Shown one piece after another: positions 163-48,812 of a DNA stretch of 64,000 nucleotides. The notes below the pieces were generated by a model, which worked only from the letters and a program-made list of their open reading frames with translations, did no database searches and was not told the origin of the DNA. Source of the DNA: Aristaeella lactis (GTDB taxonomy: Bacteria > Bacillota > Clostridia > Christensenellales > Aristaeellaceae). Numbering within the stretch: the stretch's first letter is position 1; each line of letters starts with the position of its first letter. Location: contig NZ_CP069421.1 of NCBI RefSeq assembly GCF_018118585.1, positions 2,542,001 through 2,606,000 of the forward strand, written 5' to 3'. The translations under genes and the position numbers were made by a program.

Positions 163-281
163 TGTTTATTCTTTCCCGCAACCTCAATCGTCGCATCTCG
201 CCCTTGGAGCGGGCTCACTGCTCGTTTCGGTTGACTCGGTCGGCTCATTTCCGCCTTCGACGGACAGCCCACTGGGCTGTC
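163..281 (-). repeat. Isolated copy of the structured repeat, between purF and purM
   Basis: Read on the minus strand, this spacer contains the same elements as the array at 20.24-20.79 kb. There is a hairpin with loop CACTG on the plus strand (CAGTG on the minus strand; arms GACAGCC/GGCTGTC, 263-281), a second small hairpin with a GAA loop, and the core running from the GAGTCAACCGAAACGAGCAG block to CGACGATTGAGG (about 177-246). The CAGTG-loop hairpin covers the purF stop codon. Similarity is by eye. It is the only copy I found away from the tRNA-Asn locus. Confidence 0.75.
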
Positions 282-1710
282 ATTCGCCTTCCTCCCCATT
301 CCAGCAGTAAGTGCACAGCTCGCAGGGATCAATACCGATGGCCTTGATCACGCCCTCGAGGGTCTGGAACTCCAGGGAAGCGAAGTTGAACTTCTTGCAG
401 ATGCATTCCCGGAGGTTCTTGCCGCGCTCGGTGCTGCCGTCGGCATATTCATCGATGTGCTCGAAACCTTCCTCCCCTTCCAGCTCCAGGATCACCCGGC
501 GGGCGATCAGCTCCAGGTCGCTGTTGGAGCGGGAGAAGTTCAGGTATTTGCAGGCGTACATAATGGGCGGGCAGGCACTGCGCATATGCACGGACTTGGC
601 ACCGCTCTCGTACAGGAACTCAACGGTTTCCCTCAGCTGGGTACCCCGGACGATGGAGTCATCCACAAACAGCAGGTTCTTGTCCTTGATCAGTTCGTTC
701 ACGGGAATCTGCTTCATCTTGGCAATCTTGTCCCGGTCCGTCTGGTTGGCCGGCATGAAGCTGCGGCTCCAGGTAGGGGTGTATTTAATGAAGGCACGGG
801 CAAAGGGAACGCCGCTGCGGTTCGCGTAGCCAATGGCATGGGGCGTACCGGAATCCGGAACACCGCCGATGTAGTCGATCGGATCATTCCGGCCGGCGGC
901 CTTGTCATTGTCCGCCATGATCGCGCCGTTGCGGTAGCGCATCTCTTCCACGTTCACCCCTTCATAGGTGGAGGTGGGATAGCCGTAATAGCTCCAGAGG
1001 AAGGAGCAGATCTTCTTTTTCTTTCCCGGAGGCACCAACTGGGTCATCTTGCTGGGGGTCAGTTCCACGATCTCCCCGGGGCCCAGTTCACGAACGTCTT
1101 CGTATCCGGTCTTATGGAAGGCAAAGGATTCAAAGGCCACGGCGTAGCTGTCATCCCGCTTGCCGATCGCCACGGGCAGGCGGCCCATGCGGTCCCGGGC
1201 GGCAATGATGGAACCCTTGTCCGTCAGGATCAGGATGGAAGCAGTGCCGATGATGGACTTCTGGGCGAACCGGATGCCCTCGGCAAAATTGCTCTTCTGG
1301 TTGATCAGCGCGCTGAGCAGCTCTGTCTGGTTGATCTTGCCGCCGGTCATGGAATCAAAATGACCGCCGCTGAAGCTGAGGTACTGATCGATCAGTTCAT
1401 CCGCGTTGTTGATCACACCGGTCATGCAGATGGCATAGGTGCCAAGATTGGACCTGATCAGCAGGGGCTGGGGATCCGCGTCGGAAATACATCCGATGGC
1501 GGAAGTGCCGCGCATTTCCTCAAAAATATGCTCAAACTTGGTCCGGAAAGGAGCGTTGCAGATATTATGAATCTTCCGCTGCAGACCGATCTCCTCATCC
1601 CACGCGGCCATACCGGCACGGCGTGTGCCCAGGTGGCTGTGGTAGTCTACACCGAAAAACACATCCAGCATGCAGTCCTTTTTGGATGTAATCCCGAAAA
1701 AACCGCCCAT
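280..1710 (-). CDS. purF: Amidophosphoribosyltransferase-like protein lacking the N-terminal catalytic Cys
   Basis: This 476-residue protein has the PurF layout: an N-terminal class II glutamine amidotransferase fold (LGTRRAGM at 27-34), the GGVPDSGTPHAIGYA block (282-296) and the PRPP-binding loop LLFVDDSIVRGTQL (346-359). PurF makes phosphoribosylamine, the first committed step of purine synthesis. The family normally begins Met-Cys-Gly, with Cys as the glutaminase nucleophile. Here the start is MGGFFGI, so Gly replaces that Cys. The phosphoribosyltransferase half looks intact, and the C-terminus has a CELCTYC cluster. Start choice: GGAGGT about nine bases before the ATG. It sits downstream of purE and upstream of purM in the same orientation. 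I recall similar MGGFFG proteins annotated as PurF in other clostridia. Whether it uses free ammonia, or a partner glutaminase, is inference. Confidence 0.85.
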   Translation of the reverse strand: MGGFFGITSKKDCMLDVFFGVDYHSHLGTRRAGMAAWDEEIGLQRKIHNICNAPFRTKFEHIFEEMRGTSAIGCISDADPQPLLIRSNLGTYAICMTGVINNADELIDQYLSFSGGHFDSMTGGKINQTELLSALINQKSNFAEGIRFAQKSIIGTASILILTDKGSIIAARDRMGRLPVAIGKRDDSYAVAFESFAFHKTGYEDVRELGPGEIVELTPSKMTQLVPPGKKKKICSFLWSYYGYPTSTYEGVNVEEMRYRNGAIMADNDKAAGRNDPIDYIGGVPDSGTPHAIGYANRSGVPFARAFIKYTPTWSRSFMPANQTDRDKIAKMKQIPVNELIKDKNLLFVDDSIVRGTQLRETVEFLYESGAKSVHMRSACPPIMYACKYLNFSRSNSDLELIARRVILELEGEEGFEHIDEYADGSTERGKNLRECICKKFNFASLEFQTLEGVIKAIGIDPCELCTYCWNGEEGE

Positions 1711-7175: not shown

Positions 7176-10100
7176 TTATGCATCAATCGTAGAGATCGTC
7201 AGCGTGGTTTCCTCCAGCACGTCCAGCAGCACCCGGACGGTATCCAGGCTGGTAAAGATCGTGGCGTTGTTCTCCGTGGCGCAGCGGCGGATCTGCAGGC
7301 CGTCGCTCTCGCTCTCCGCCTCGCCGATCTCCCGGGTGTTGATGATGTAAGCCACATGACCCTGACGGATGCTGTTCAGGATCTCATCGGATCCCTGACT
7401 CAGTTTCAGCATGGCGTGGGTGCGGATACCGTTTTCCTTCAGGAAACGGGCAGTGCCCCGGGTCGCCTCAATGTTGAAGCCCAGGTTGTAGAAGCGGCGG
7501 ATCAGCGGCAGCGCCTCGTCCTTGTCCCGGTCGGCGATGGTGGCCAGCACCGTGCCGTAGTTCTGCAGCCGGGTTCCGCCGGCCTGCAGCGCCTTGTACA
7601 GCGCGCGGTTCAGCTTGTCATCGTATCCGATGGCTTCACCGGTGGACTTCATTTCGGGGCTCAGGTAAGCGTCCAGGCCCTTGATCTTGTTGAAGGAGAA
7701 AACCGGCACCTTCACATAGTAGCGTTTCTTTTCTTCCGGATAGAGATCGAAGATTCCCTGCTCCTTCAGGCTCTTGCCCAGGATGACCTCGGTGGCGATG
7801 TCCGCCAGGGAGTAGCCTGTGGACTTGCTCAGGAAGGGCACGGTCCGGCTGGAGCGGGGGTTCACCTCGATGATGTAGACGTTCTCATTCTGATCCACAA
7901 TGAACTGGATGTTGAACAGGCCGATGATGCCGATGCCCAGACCCAGCTTCTTCGCGTACTGCAGGATGATACCCTTCACCTTGTTGCTGATGGAGAAGGT
8001 GGGATAGACGGAGATGGAGTCGCCGCTGTGGATACCGGTGCGTTCCACCAGTTCCATGATGCCCGGCACAAAGACGTCCCGGCCGTCGCAGATGGCGTCC
8101 ACCTCAACCTCTTTACCGCGGATGTATTTGTCCACCAGCACCGGCTTGTCAGCGTCGATTTCCACAGCCGTGCGCAGGTAATGGCGCAGCTGATCCTCAT
8201 CGCCGACGATCTGCATGGCCCGGCCGCCCAGCACGAAGCTCGGACGGACCAGCACCGGATAGCCGATCTCCTCAGCTGCCTTCACGCCGTCCTCAATCCG
8301 GGTAACCGCCCGGCCCTGGGGCTGCGGGATTCCCAGTTCCTCCAGGATCTTTTCGAAGCTGTCCCGGTTTTCCGCCCGCTCAATGGCATCGCAGTCGGTA
8401 CCGATGATCTTCACGCCGCGCTTCATCAGCGGCTCCGCCAGGTTGATGGCCGTCTGGCCGCCCAGGGAGGCGATGACGCCTTCCGGCTTTTCAAAGTCGA
8501 TGATCGCCATGACGTCTTCGGGCGTCAGGGGCTCAAAGTACAGCTTGTCCGCGGTGGTATAGTCCGTGGAAACCGTCTCGGGGTTGTTGTTGATGATGAT
8601 GGCTTCATAGCCCGCGCGGCGGATGGTCTGCACCGCGTGCACGGTGGAGTAGTCGAACTCAACGCCCTGGCCGATACGGATCGGGCCGGCGCCGAGCACC
8701 ACAATCTTTTTCTTGTCCGTGAGGATGGAGTCGTTCTTTCCGCTGTAGCTGGAGTAGAGGTAGGCAATGTACTTGCCGGTGTGCAGGGTATCCACCATGC
8801 GGAAGATCGGGACGATTCCCTTCTCCTTGCGCAGGGTGTAGATATCCGTTTCCTTCATATTCCAGAGGATGGAGAGCTCCTGGTCGCCGAAGCCCATCTC
8901 CTTTGCTTCCTTCAGCAGGGCCACATCTCCGGGGGCCGCCTTCAGGCGCTTTTCCATTTCGGTGATCTTTTTGATGCTCTCCAGGAACAGCTCCGTGATC
9001 ATGGTCCGTTCATGGATCGCGTCGATCGCCACATCCCTGCGCAGCAGTTCCGTGACCGCGAAGAGCGTATCAGCCCGGAACTCCTTCACATACTCCAGCA
9101 GGTCTTCTGTGCTCATGCTGTCGAACTTCGCCAGGTGCAGGTGGCACACACCGGTCTCCAGGCTGCGCACGCTCTTGAGCATGCACTCTTCCAGGTTGCT
9201 GCCGATGCCCATCACTTCGCCGGTGGCCTTCATCTGGGTGCCCAGCTGGTTGCTGGCGGAGGTGAACTTGTCGAAGGGGAAGCGGGGGAACTTCGCCACA
9301 ATGTACTCCAGGGAGGGTTCCATGGCCGCGTTGCCGCCGGCCACCGGGATCTCTTCCAGCGCCATGCCCAGGGCGATCTTCGCGGTCACCCGGGCAATGG
9401 GATAGCCGCTGGCCTTGCTGGCCAGGGCGGAAGACCGGCTGACCCGCGGGTTAACCTCGATCAGGTAGTATTTGCTGCTGTTCGGGTCCAGCGCGAACTG
9501 CACGTTGCAGCCGCCCTCGACCTTCAGTTCCCGGATGATCTTGATCGCGCTGTCATTGAGCATCTTCAGGTCATGATCAGACAGGCTCAGGATCGGCGCC
9601 ACAACCACGCTGTCGCCGGTGTGTACGCCTACGGGGTCCACGTTCTCCATGCCGCAGATCGTAATTGCTTTGTCATTGCTGTCCCGCATAACCTCGAACT
9701 CGATTTCCTTGAAGCCGCGGACGCTCTTTTCAACCAGCACCTGGTGCACAGGGCTCAGGCGGAAGGCGTTGGTGCCGATCTCGATCAGCTCTTCCTCATT
9801 GTTGGCAAAACCGCCGCCGGTGCCGCCCAGGGTAAAGGCAGGACGCAGCACCACCGGGTAGCCGATGTCCAGTGCCGCTTTTTTGGCTTCTTCCAGGTTA
9901 TAGGTAATTTCGCTCGGGATGACCGGCTCGCCGATGGACTCGCACATTTCCTTGAACAGTTCCCGGTCTTCAGCCCGCTCAATGCTCCGGCTGCTGGTGC
10001 CCAGCAGTTCCACGCCGCATTCCTTCAGCACGCCTTTTCGTTCCAGCTGCACTGCCAGGTTCAGGCCGGTCTGGCCGCCGATACCGGGCACGATGGCGTC

Positions 10101-19071: not shown

Positions 19072-20103
19072 TTACCATTTATTCCGGACTTTTTCGGCGA
19101 ATCCGGTCAGGTTTTCGATCTTCAGTTCCCTGCCGTCATCCAGGACAGCTTTCCCGGAGAACCGTCCGAAAACCTGGTGCTGGTCGGAACAGATGACCAG
19201 CAGGTCGGTTTTCATGCATCTGTCCATGATCGGTTCAAAGGTCAGCTCCAGACGGCCTTCACTGTCTTTGATCGTCCAGGGAGACAGGTAATCCTCTTTC
19301 CCGTCCTTCACCGGAATCTCAAACTGAACCTGCTCCAGCTTGTGGATCTTTCCCTCATACACCAGCACATTCTCACTGGCAGCGGACGTGTCCCCAAAGC
19401 CATATCCAAGGTTAAATCCAAAGGGTTTTCCTTCCGCCAGTCCAGATACGGAACCCCAGTACCAGGTATTGTCATAGGTCCATACGCCGCGGCCCCAGTC
19501 CAGCACCGCAAAGGTGTCCGCCGGATCACATTTGTATTCCCGTCCTCCAAGCGTGATGGTTCCTTCCACACGCATGCAGTTGATCTTCTGGTTATAGTAG
19601 AAGGCTTCCGGATGGTCTTTATAGGGTGTAACGATCACCATGGATTCCTTCGGTTCATCCGTCAGCATCAGGTCGAACACGATCGTGTCTTCCCCGCTGA
19701 ACTTGTTCATGAAACCGGTCAGCCGACGGCTGATCCCGTCATTTTCAAAAGAAAGCATATAGCCTTTCCCGGTCACCCGGATGCTGCCGTTCTTGCTGCT
19801 GGACGGCAGGTTCCGCGGAGCGAAAATGGGCAGGTTCATGGCGGATTTTGTAATCTGGCTTTTCCGTTCAAAATCCATCAGGGAAATGCTGTCCATGGTC
19901 ATATAGCCGTTATGGTCGATGGTCAGTGCCAGGGCAAAGCGGTCACAGCAGACCGCATAGTAATCCCATTCCTTGATTCTCGACCGTCCCGTACAGATCC
20001 GGGATCTGTCATAGGTCTTAATGAGTTCTGTGGCGTATCCGGTTTCAACCAGCCGTCCGTTCCCATCATGAAGCGGACCGGGTGTTATGATTCGGCGCTG
20101 CAT
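19072..20103 (-). CDS. DUF2804 family protein
   Basis: The 343-residue product carries the family hallmark DWGRGVWTYDNTWYWGSVSG and GFNLGYGFGD, typical of DUF2804 proteins, whose biochemical role is unknown. No signal peptide or membrane helix. The start at MQRRIITPGP is supported by GGAGG eight bases upstream; an earlier in-frame ATG lacks a site. It is the upstream member of a two-gene unit with the HD protein. Confidence 0.85.
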   Translation of the reverse strand: MQRRIITPGPLHDGNGRLVETGYATELIKTYDRSRICTGRSRIKEWDYYAVCCDRFALALTIDHNGYMTMDSISLMDFERKSQITKSAMNLPIFAPRNLPSSSKNGSIRVTGKGYMLSFENDGISRRLTGFMNKFSGEDTIVFDLMLTDEPKESMVIVTPYKDHPEAFYYNQKINCMRVEGTITLGGREYKCDPADTFAVLDWGRGVWTYDNTWYWGSVSGLAEGKPFGFNLGYGFGDTSAASENVLVYEGKIHKLEQVQFEIPVKDGKEDYLSPWTIKDSEGRLELTFEPIMDRCMKTDLLVICSDQHQVFGRFSGKAVLDDGRELKIENLTGFAEKVRNKW

Positions 20104-20199
20104 ATTTCCCGCCTCCGTTATACAGATTGTTTTGCCCATTATACTTCATAGATACACTGAATACAATGATACATATATAAAAGGCCCAAAGTAATTCAG
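20104..20199. promoter_or_regulatory. AT-rich upstream region of the DUF2804 gene
   Basis: This gap between the DUF2804 start and the repeat array is AT-rich and should hold the minus-strand promoter of the DUF2804/HD unit. No convincing -35/-10 pair with correct spacing could be picked by eye. Confidence 0.35.
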
Positions 20200-20235
20200 C
20201 CTGATCTTTCGATCAGGCTTTTTCTGCTCCCCAGG
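20200..20235. repeat. Left copy of a 36-base direct repeat (tRNA-Asn 3' end plus terminator)
   Basis: The 36 bases beginning CCTGATCTTTCGATCAGG and ending CTGCTCCCCAGG are identical to 20,814-20,849. In the right copy the last bases are the true 3' end of the tRNA-Asn gene and the rest is its terminator. The left copy is therefore a duplicated tRNA tail on the far side of the repeat array, as at an attachment site. It also forms a plus-strand hairpin followed by T5. Confidence 0.8.
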
Positions 20236-20811
20236 GGGGGGAGCGATCCGAGTGGCAGCCCGGTGGGCTGTCCATCGAAGATGGAAACGAGGTGAGCGAG
20301 TCAATCGAAACGAGCAGAGAATCGAAGCGTCCCCGCGAGATTCTCTGCGACGATTGAGATTGCGGAAAGGGAAGCGGTGCCACAGTGTGGCATTTGACGA
20401 AGTCAAAAGCGACCCGAGCGAGTCAATCGAAACGAGCAGAGGACCGAAGCGTCCTCGCAAGGTTCTCTGCGACGATTGAGATTGCGGAGAGGGAGTGGTG
20501 CCCCAGTGGGGCATTCGCCGCAGGCGAAAACGAGGTGGGGTTCGGAACGCCCGGAAAACGAGCCAGTGTGCTCGTTTTCAGTGGAGAACGGGCGGCAGCC
20601 CCGGGCAGGTCAACCGAAACGAGCAGAGAGCCGAAGCGTCCCCGCGAGGTTCTCTGCGACGATTGAGATTCGGAAGGGGCGAACCTCTTTCGACTGCCAG
20701 TGGCAGAAGTATCGAAAGAGGTGAGGTCATTCGAAAGGAAGCAATCTCCACAGTGTGGAGTTGCGACCATTGAGAATGCGGGAGTTATCTACCTCCTGGG
20801 GAGCAGAAAAA
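20219..20811. repeat. Array of structured repeats bounded by inverted repeats
   Basis: The array has 17-base terminal inverted repeats (TTTTTCTGCTCCCCAGG, 20,219-20,235; its complement at 20,795-20,811). It holds three good copies and one degenerate copy of a roughly 70-base core: 20,294-20,365, 20,416-20,487, 20,605-20,673 and about 20,721-20,781. The core folds as TCAATCG ... CGATTGA enclosing GCAGAGAATC ... GATTCTCTGC. Between cores are small hairpins whose loops are constant (CAGTG or close variants; GAA or GCA) but whose stems differ and remain complementary: GCCA/TGGC, GCCC/GGGC, CTCCA/TGGAG, GAAAACGAGC/GCTCGTTTTC, TTTGAC/GTCAAA, TTCGCC/GGCGAA. No credible open reading frame was found inside. 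Confidence 0.8.
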
Positions 20812-20831
20812 AACCTGATCTTTCGATCAGG
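20807..20831 (-). terminator. Terminator of the rRNA operon
   Basis: On the minus strand, CCTGATC GAAA GATCAGG is followed by seven T, a few bases after the tRNA-Asn gene. The surrounding GGGGAGCAGAAAAA / TTTTTCTGCTCCCC arms make a larger palindrome that includes the tRNA end. Confidence 0.85.
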
Positions 20832-20839
20832 CTTTTTCT

Positions 20840-20913
<74 letters not shown>

Positions 20914-20919
20914 TATGGA

Positions 20920-21037
20920 ATCCGGCGGCGACCTACTCTCCCGGACCGTTGCCAGTCAAGTACCATCGGCACTGAAGAGCTTAACTTCTGTGTTCGGTAT
21001 GGGAACAGGTGGAACCTCTTCGTCATAGCCACCGGAA
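20920..21037 (-). rRNA. rrf: 5S ribosomal RNA
   Basis: About 118 bases with the conserved blocks CCATACCGAACACAGAAGTT and GGGAGAGTAGGTC on the minus strand and complementary ends (TCCGGTGGC / GCCGCCGGA). It lies about 200 bases downstream of 23S. Ends are estimated to within a few bases. Confidence 0.95.
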
Positions 21038-21235
21038 ATTGTGAGCTATTTAGGAAATCACTTTCGTGATTTCTTCGTCCCTTTAGCGGAACGATTGGCC
21101 CTTTCCGTCGTTCTTTTCTTCCTCTTCCAGGGCCCTTCGGATTGCCTTACGCAACCCTGACAACTGCACAGCCATAAGATTCAGGAATTAGTTGACCTGT
21201 TTTTCTGTTCTAATTGATCTCAAGATCTTCTGAAA

Positions 21236-48462: not shown

Positions 48463-48812
48463 AGGATTGGCCCTTTTCACAGGGGCTTTTCCACAGCCCG
48501 GTGAATTCACTGAAAACAGTGGATAAATGATCCTGTTTTTACCTTCCTTTAACCTGGCGAATGACGGTTTCCCTTTTCCAATCTCTCCTTTCTCCTTCCC
48601 AAAAGAAGGATTTAGGCAGGCTGATAGGGAATAGTTACAGGAAACTGTTAATTTTCACCCAATGTAATCACATATTATTCACACCGAAAGTGACGGCATA
48701 CATGCCCTCACCCCGCTTTTCCACAGAATCAACAGATTCTATTACTACAACGAATTGATCTTATATATATAAGATCATTCCGCGTTTTCAAAACGAAAGA
48801 GGTTGAACCGAC
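48463..48812. other. Candidate replication origin segment upstream of dnaN
   Basis: This 350-base AT-rich gap has four sites one mismatch from the DnaA box TTATCCACA: TTTTCCACA at 48,487-48,495 and 48,717-48,725, TTATTCACA at 48,675-48,683, and the reverse-strand AGTGGATAA at 48,518-48,526. A perfect palindrome GATCTTATATATATAAGATC (48,757-48,776) could be a melting element or promoter. In most bacteria dnaA would lie here; it is absent. Confidence 0.55.

Follow-up and report, generated by a model that had tools for sequence, protein, structure and literature searches.

A tandem array of gene-less structured repeats in Aristaeella lactis and its probable nature as a cluster of miniature mobile elements

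Organization of the array

The window, i.e. the whole analysed stretch of 64,000 nucleotides from Aristaeella lactis (contig NZ_CP069421.1, positions 2,542,001 to 2,606,000, in a genome of 3.45 Mb), contains an array of 593 bp that adjoins a tRNA-Asn and a 5S rRNA gene and in which a dispersed structured repeat occurs four times, head to tail, in the order A1, A2, A3 (with a C repeat inside it) and D. The A-type unit, of about 120-126 bp, runs from a GGAGCGA start through a hairpin with an NGT loop and a hairpin with an NNA loop to the core, and the D-type unit, of about 102 bp, comprises a single long arm with an AGT loop followed by a related core; neither type contains genes. The C repeat within the third unit forms a family of its own, and copies of it alone occur in the same genome, several of them within GTCAT-type repeats. 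These modules were read from 37 regions around the 56 matching pieces obtained when the genome was searched with the array. The features are:

20200-20240 (no strand): left copy of the tRNA end and terminator palindrome (41-nt direct repeat)
20240-20365 (+): A-type unit 1, with GGAGCGA start, NGT-loop and NNA-loop hairpins and core at 20300-20365
20366-20487 (+): A-type unit 2, with a shortened start and core at 20422-20487
20488-20673 (+): A-type unit 3, interrupted by the C repeat, with a weak core at 20609-20673
20537-20606 (+): C repeat (CCGGGGTTCGG...CAGCCCCGGGC) within unit 3; this part alone has copies elsewhere in the genome
20679-20781 (+): D-type unit, with long arm, AGT loop and core at 20726-20781
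20792-20854 (no strand): tRNA end in inverted orientation, together with the terminator palindrome and the right-hand one of the two 41-nt direct repeats
20840-20912 (-): tRNA-Asn, whose 3' end (CCCCAGG) borders the array
176-295 (-): fifth copy, of the A type, lying at the 3' terminus of a gene with a glutamine-amidotransferase domain (which we take to be PurF-like), whose stop codon it provides; the site is empty in relatives

The structured repeats proposed for this locus by an earlier, sequence-only reading are real: the covariance model R1 finds cores at all four positions and in the fifth copy, and the small hairpins named in that reading are present. The scores are 67.2 bits for 20300-20365(+), 48.2 bits for 20609-20673(+) and 64.0 bits for 176-235(-), together with 68.2 bits for 20422-20487(+) and 58.3 bits for 20726-20781(+), the last two not being independent, as both cores were among the 26 from which R1 was built. 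Of the expected three good copies and one degenerate copy, the supposedly degenerate one (20726-20781) belongs to a second subtype, D, which is common elsewhere; the weakest core is the third (20609-20673). The hairpin GAAAACGAGC/GCTCGTTTTC, formerly counted among those of the array, belongs to the separate C repeat.

On either strand, none of 100 dinucleotide-shuffled versions folds as well as the array itself (z -11.1 for the plus strand and -8.6 for the minus strand). A comparison of positions 19900-21100 with Rfam at a lax threshold returned no family at gathering score except 5S rRNA and tRNA, and seven matches below it, mostly microRNA-like, which bears out the earlier opinion that no named family fits. 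No description of this repeat family was found in a literature search of partial coverage.

Structure and covariation of the core

The core forms a rod in which a terminal stem that covaries and two tandem G·A motifs are capped by an apical hairpin. A pattern for the core gave 166 matches over the collected loci, 113 of them distinct. GAA, TGA and two of the five terminal pairs are prescribed by the pattern, which makes invariance there uninformative; the three inner terminal pairs are left free, except for one 3' base restricted to purine. Of the 113 distinct cores, 106 have Watson-Crick pairs throughout the terminal stem, with seven letter sets (CAACC/GGTTG, CAATC/GATTG, CAACT/AGTTG, CAAGC/GCTTG, CAGGC/GCCTG, CATTC/GAATG and CAGCC/GGCTG). 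This stem had been noticed before as TCAATCG/CGATTGA, in a register that does not stand, as the covariation supports pairing of CAxxC with the second GATTG. In the apical hairpin all letters differ between genomes and the pairing is retained.

Covariation was assessed against shuffles and slid registers. In an alignment of 26 cores, chosen for diversity and including two from the window, double changes are found in 15 of the 19 pairs, 85.0% of the cells pair (69.5% when shuffled), and the covariation score is 0.382, compared with 0.135 in shuffles (0 of 500) and at most 0.146 in slid registers. A set independent of the pattern was obtained by searching 58 loci with R1 at E 0.01, which yielded 96 hits, 86 of them distinct. 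Here double changes occur in 18 of the 19 pairs, the outer helix is paired to 98.0%, and the score is 0.475 (shuffled 0.181, 0 of 500; slid at most 0.143), a value that is favoured by the fitting of the alignment to R1. The mismatches are retained throughout the same 86 hits: G8·A59 is present in 83, A9·G58 in 84 and A15·G51 in 85, and at position 14/52 there are 46 G·A, 27 A·C, seven A·T, five A·A and one G·T. The covariation in both sets, the retained mismatches and the variation of the apical hairpin demonstrate that constant motifs with varying, complementary stems extend far beyond the array; the compensatory change that had been noticed within it is therefore genuine.

Two other features were considered and rejected. 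A scarcity of G·T pairs, which would have pointed to DNA, is not supported by the upstream hairpins, in which such pairs are not rare (140 of 1093 pairs, false extensions included). An outer stem formed by the flanks is not a general part of the unit either, as at least eight consecutive complementary bases were found at 11 of 58 borders of the A type and at 0 of 38 of the D type, with a mean of 2.9 such cases in shuffled pairings of all 96 borders.

Distribution among genomes

The search of related genomes with a covariance model, which the sequence-only reading had suggested, revealed R1 matches in 43 of 45 genomes of the genus, including 72 cores in the genome of the array itself and between 0 and 59 in the 44 others. 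At least 10 of 297 genomes sampled from the order are positive, five of these belonging to the same genus, and at least one of 398 from the phylum, namely the source genome itself; both counts are lower bounds, as few candidates in each genome are scored in searches of this size. Named genomes scanned with a pattern gave at least 120 stretches, and the 80 listed among them are all from Clostridia, Clostridiales or Candidatus Limiplasma. In viral contigs, three and one stretches were found for two core patterns. One phage contig (L286:9134-9952) has an element core at 9613-9667(-), in frame and on the opposite strand within a gene that retains an intact peptidoglycan-binding domain as its C-terminal part, and the same gene is present in L287.

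Mobile families with drifting stems and a constant fold are easily missed, or filed as non-coding RNA. The elements can also rewrite the ends of genes: one provides the stop codon of a gene in the window, and one lies in frame within the phage gene mentioned above.

Empty sites and borders

The elements are mobile, and the same sites can be read with and without them. Behind a gene with AA_kinase and ACT domains (Pfam), a core is present in four of 25 readable relatives and absent from 21 (five of 30 were unreadable), and the flanks of a filled site (L233) and an empty one (L234) are nearly identical. At the site of the fifth copy of the window, seven of 27 readable loci have a core and 20 have none (three of 30 were unreadable), one of the 20 core-less loci (L266) retaining a core remnant. 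Of 30 loci at the tRNA-Asn site, 27 could be read, and in nine of these the element start directly follows a second CCCCAGG, i.e. the letters of the tRNA end; in the window a second copy of the tRNA end is followed by an element start in the same arrangement, further out.

The elements begin with GGAGCGA or N(C/T)GAA and end with GTTGCGG. The dinucleotide directly 5' of the unit is GG in 44 of 44 distinct left borders of the A type and in 34 of 36 of the D type, compared with a background of 8.3%, and the two D-type exceptions read GCGGAA. Among 150 distinct right borders, 96% have a purine directly 3' of the unit. Neither the left nor the right borders are all independent, and many insertions at the same site may be inherited. 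At the right border a few letters differ between empty and filled sites, so joining there may be inexact. As the family offers sites in both states, a dinucleotide that marks the target, generations of copies nested in one another and a covariance model, the spread of gene-less folded DNA elements becomes testable.

At L009:1513-1920, two A units in similar context, 280 bp apart, are each followed by 5S-rRNA-like sequence, a duplicated end of an rRNA operon.

Stacking and nesting of copies

Copies insert both in tandem and into the loops of other copies. Four identical 102-bp units follow one another at L204. L200 contains three copies of a 5' unit half, which extends to CCCGGT; the last belongs to a full unit, and the 3' remainders come after it. 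This pattern is repeated insertion after GGTGG in the loop, and the same pattern is seen at L206 with CAGTGG. At L240 the loop of a D unit contains an A unit after AGTGG, at L208 the loop of a C repeat contains a D unit after CAGTGG, and at L011 a D unit lies after AGTGG in another D unit and an A unit after TCTGG in an apical loop. These cases were read by eye; an automated scan for loop nesting gave three rows, one of which (L011) is at a real site, and missed L200, L206, L208 and L240. Neighbouring inverted pairs are few (L201, L202 and L203). Of the mobile cassette array that had been envisaged, the mobility is supported and the cassettes are not: the copies are dispersed, they stack and nest, and they carry no genes.

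Several further composites were observed. The D-in-D composite recurs at three places in the genome (L011, L032 and L033), hence composites can be copied as wholes. An A unit at L118 has a different hairpin (GTGGACACTGGGGACAGTCCCCAGTGTCCAC) within its second hairpin loop, so other repeat families enter these loops too. At L014 and L063 the hairpins next to an A unit occur again on its other side, and at L014 the apical hairpin of the neighbouring core resembles the flanking hairpin, as if hairpins of the host had been captured. The C repeats at L013, L016, L017, L022 and L208 lie within GTCATTCC...GGAATCC or GTCATCCT...AGGATC repeats, which resemble the TGTC- and CGTC-tagged REPs described in the available part of PMC3733652.

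Comparison with known mobile elements

The closest parallels are found among REPINs and GTAG REPs, which, in the available excerpts of PMC3116915 and PMC3733652, are likewise short, gene-less and mostly extragenic, present in many copies, with co-varying hairpin arms and tandem clusters. Compensatory changes, as in the stems studied here, are reported for the spacer hairpins of REPINs, which also form tandem clusters (excerpts of PMC3116915), and insertion within palindromes, another likeness, for some REPs (excerpts of PMC3733652). However, our elements lack the GTAG tag, their consensus and borders showing instead GAAACGAG, GATTGAG, GG and GCGG, and they do not form an inverted doublet, the array and the tandem loci being head to tail. 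In contrast to REPINs, they are asymmetric rods with two tandem G·A motifs and a GG start that nest in their own loops, and they flank none of the four Y1 transposase genes of the genome. The CGTC REPs, as described in the parts of PMC3733652 at hand, are also dispersed hairpins that have no known dedicated transposase and lie in some cases within palindromes, but they are single stems of 8-9 bp that begin with AT and have a CGTC tag and a CCA-like tail, whereas our elements are 100-126 bp long with another core. The reverse complement of the core does have CGTC before the apical stem, yet this stem begins with GC (80 of 86 distinct hits), which sets it apart from the CGTC REPs. As the defining features of both REPINs and CGTC REPs fail, we call the elements a novel variant within miniature structured mobile DNA.

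With classical bacterial MITEs, as defined in the excerpts of PMC3733652, they have in common a non-autonomous and structured nature and a size in the range of 70-300 bp, but MITEs possess terminal inverted repeats of 15-30 bp, and the ends of our elements are not inverted copies of each other, nor is there a long target duplication. IS607 transposons, according to the portion of PMC6188088 available, insert at (G)GG, have GG at their ends and make no further target duplication, much like our elements, which start after GG and end in GG; on the other hand, they carry genes and need no fold. Elements of the IS200/IS605 type resemble ours in insertion 3' of a short motif (here GG) without target duplication, with a few letters differing at the right border. 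In integrons, attC sites have the core-site motif GTTRRRY and accompany cassette genes in arrays, and their single-strand fold outweighs the letters of the stems. The weight of the fold and the arrays are shared with our elements, which differ in ending with GTTGCGG, without GTTRRRY, and in having no gene in the unit.

Interpretation and the search for a mover

We regard the array as most likely a cluster of non-autonomous, gene-less miniature mobile elements of REPIN-like behaviour, probably moved as a folded single strand. Recognition of such a strand is suggested by the retained G·A mismatches, which recognition of a duplex would not need and template-switch correction would erase. In the proposed mechanism, an enzyme acting in trans would recognise the folded single strand, which is more likely DNA than RNA, e.g. 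DNA exposed at the replication fork, and this recognition would maintain the fold. The enzyme would excise or copy the strand and join it 3' of GG, the NGTGG loops would serve as landing sites for later copies and give rise to stacked and nested arrays, and the letters of the stems could drift as long as both arms still pair. Against this reading stand the folding with DNA energies, in which both strands do equally well, the G·T pairs of the upstream hairpins and the weakness of the strand bias given below. The earlier suggestion of sites for a structure-reading protein fits this mechanism, the protein itself being deduced and not found: among 256 open reading frames near the cores, no recurrent mobilising gene was seen in the 25 largest clusters, which were read by eye. 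Only tentatively would we go further and propose a distinct class of mobile DNA, defined by a folded single strand with two tandem G·A motifs, an undescribed structure-reading enzyme and landing loops (NGTGG) of its own, by which copies nest in copies. With stem letters free to vary and only the shape retained, such a family would elude repeat searches that rely on sequence.

It is possible, though rather doubtful, that the elements are repeats of the REPIN or TIR type and owe their movement to IS200-like Y1 transposases (RAYT/TIRYT) that these genomes encode and that would act in trans. There are four Y1 genes in the genome of the array, Y1 is present in 28 of the 45 genomes of the genus, and its number correlates with that of the cores (rho 0.37); REPINs, too, keep their ends, vary their spacer stems and cluster in tandem (available text of PMC3116915). 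However, the partial rho after genome size is 0.08, so that genome size explains the co-occurrence. Besides, all four Y1 genes are flanked by different hairpins of their own (L046, L047, L048 and L049) and share with the array only chance-like matches of 18-22 nt, and in six genomes that have 10-31 cores there is no match to Y1 (at a completeness of 60-91%). The centres of the hairpins at L046-L049 share a GGGACGG-like motif while their stems differ, i.e. they follow the same logic of a constant centre and changing stems.

Another explanation, which we find unlikely, holds that the elements are transcribed RNA (terminators, stabilisers of mRNA or non-coding RNA) selected as such, and that their dispersion is secondary. 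It would account for the covariation, for the tandem G·A motifs, which are common in RNA, and for the frequent position of cores at gene ends, many of them 43-44 bp from a called gene. The orientation of the neighbouring genes, determined with a simple purpose-made gene caller, is nevertheless mixed: for the 29 cores of the genome flanked by called genes, the upstream and downstream genes are opposite/opposite in 11 cases, same/opposite in seven, opposite/same in seven and same/same in four, which speaks against a cis-regulatory RNA. None of 37 cores in this genome lies within a called gene. Positions 19900-21100 have no Rfam match for the elements, and most relatives have empty sites. As the same sites are empty in relatives and the gene orientation is mixed, the elements are not a fixed RNA gene. 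The new family of non-coding RNA put forward by the sequence-only reading, in the usual sense of the term, is likewise at odds with dispersed insertions, empty sites, inconsistent gene orientation and stacking and nesting.

We give still less credence to paired changes arising without selection, through template-switch correction of imperfect palindromes in replication. Whole stems have been replaced and G·T intermediates are few in the outer helix, as expected from such correction, which may add to the turnover of the apical stem. On the other hand, it predicts perfect palindromes and would have removed the G·A mismatches too, so their retention in 83-85 of the 86 distinct hits argues against it as the sole cause. 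Spread by GG-core recombination through an IS607-like serine transposase would agree with the start after GG and the GG at the end of the elements, but is the least credible explanation, as 0 of the 45 genus genomes have an IS607 TnpA above the cut-off, the weak matches in 26 of them do not track the number of cores (rho -0.01), and recombination of a duplex would not need the fold.

In our preferred reading, movement as single-stranded DNA would be expected to leave a bias to one strand with respect to replication. The preference observed is weak, 76 to 52 after collapse of clusters (p 0.04, from the 150 listed of 235 hits), and is absent in two of the four genomes, the origins of three of them having been placed by synteny, not by skew. 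A likely replication origin lies in the window at 48463-48812, where the GC skew changes sign near 49 kb. Reading frames beside it encode domains of DNA polymerase III beta and RecF/SMC, and the sole DnaA_N match is located about 1.28 Mb away.
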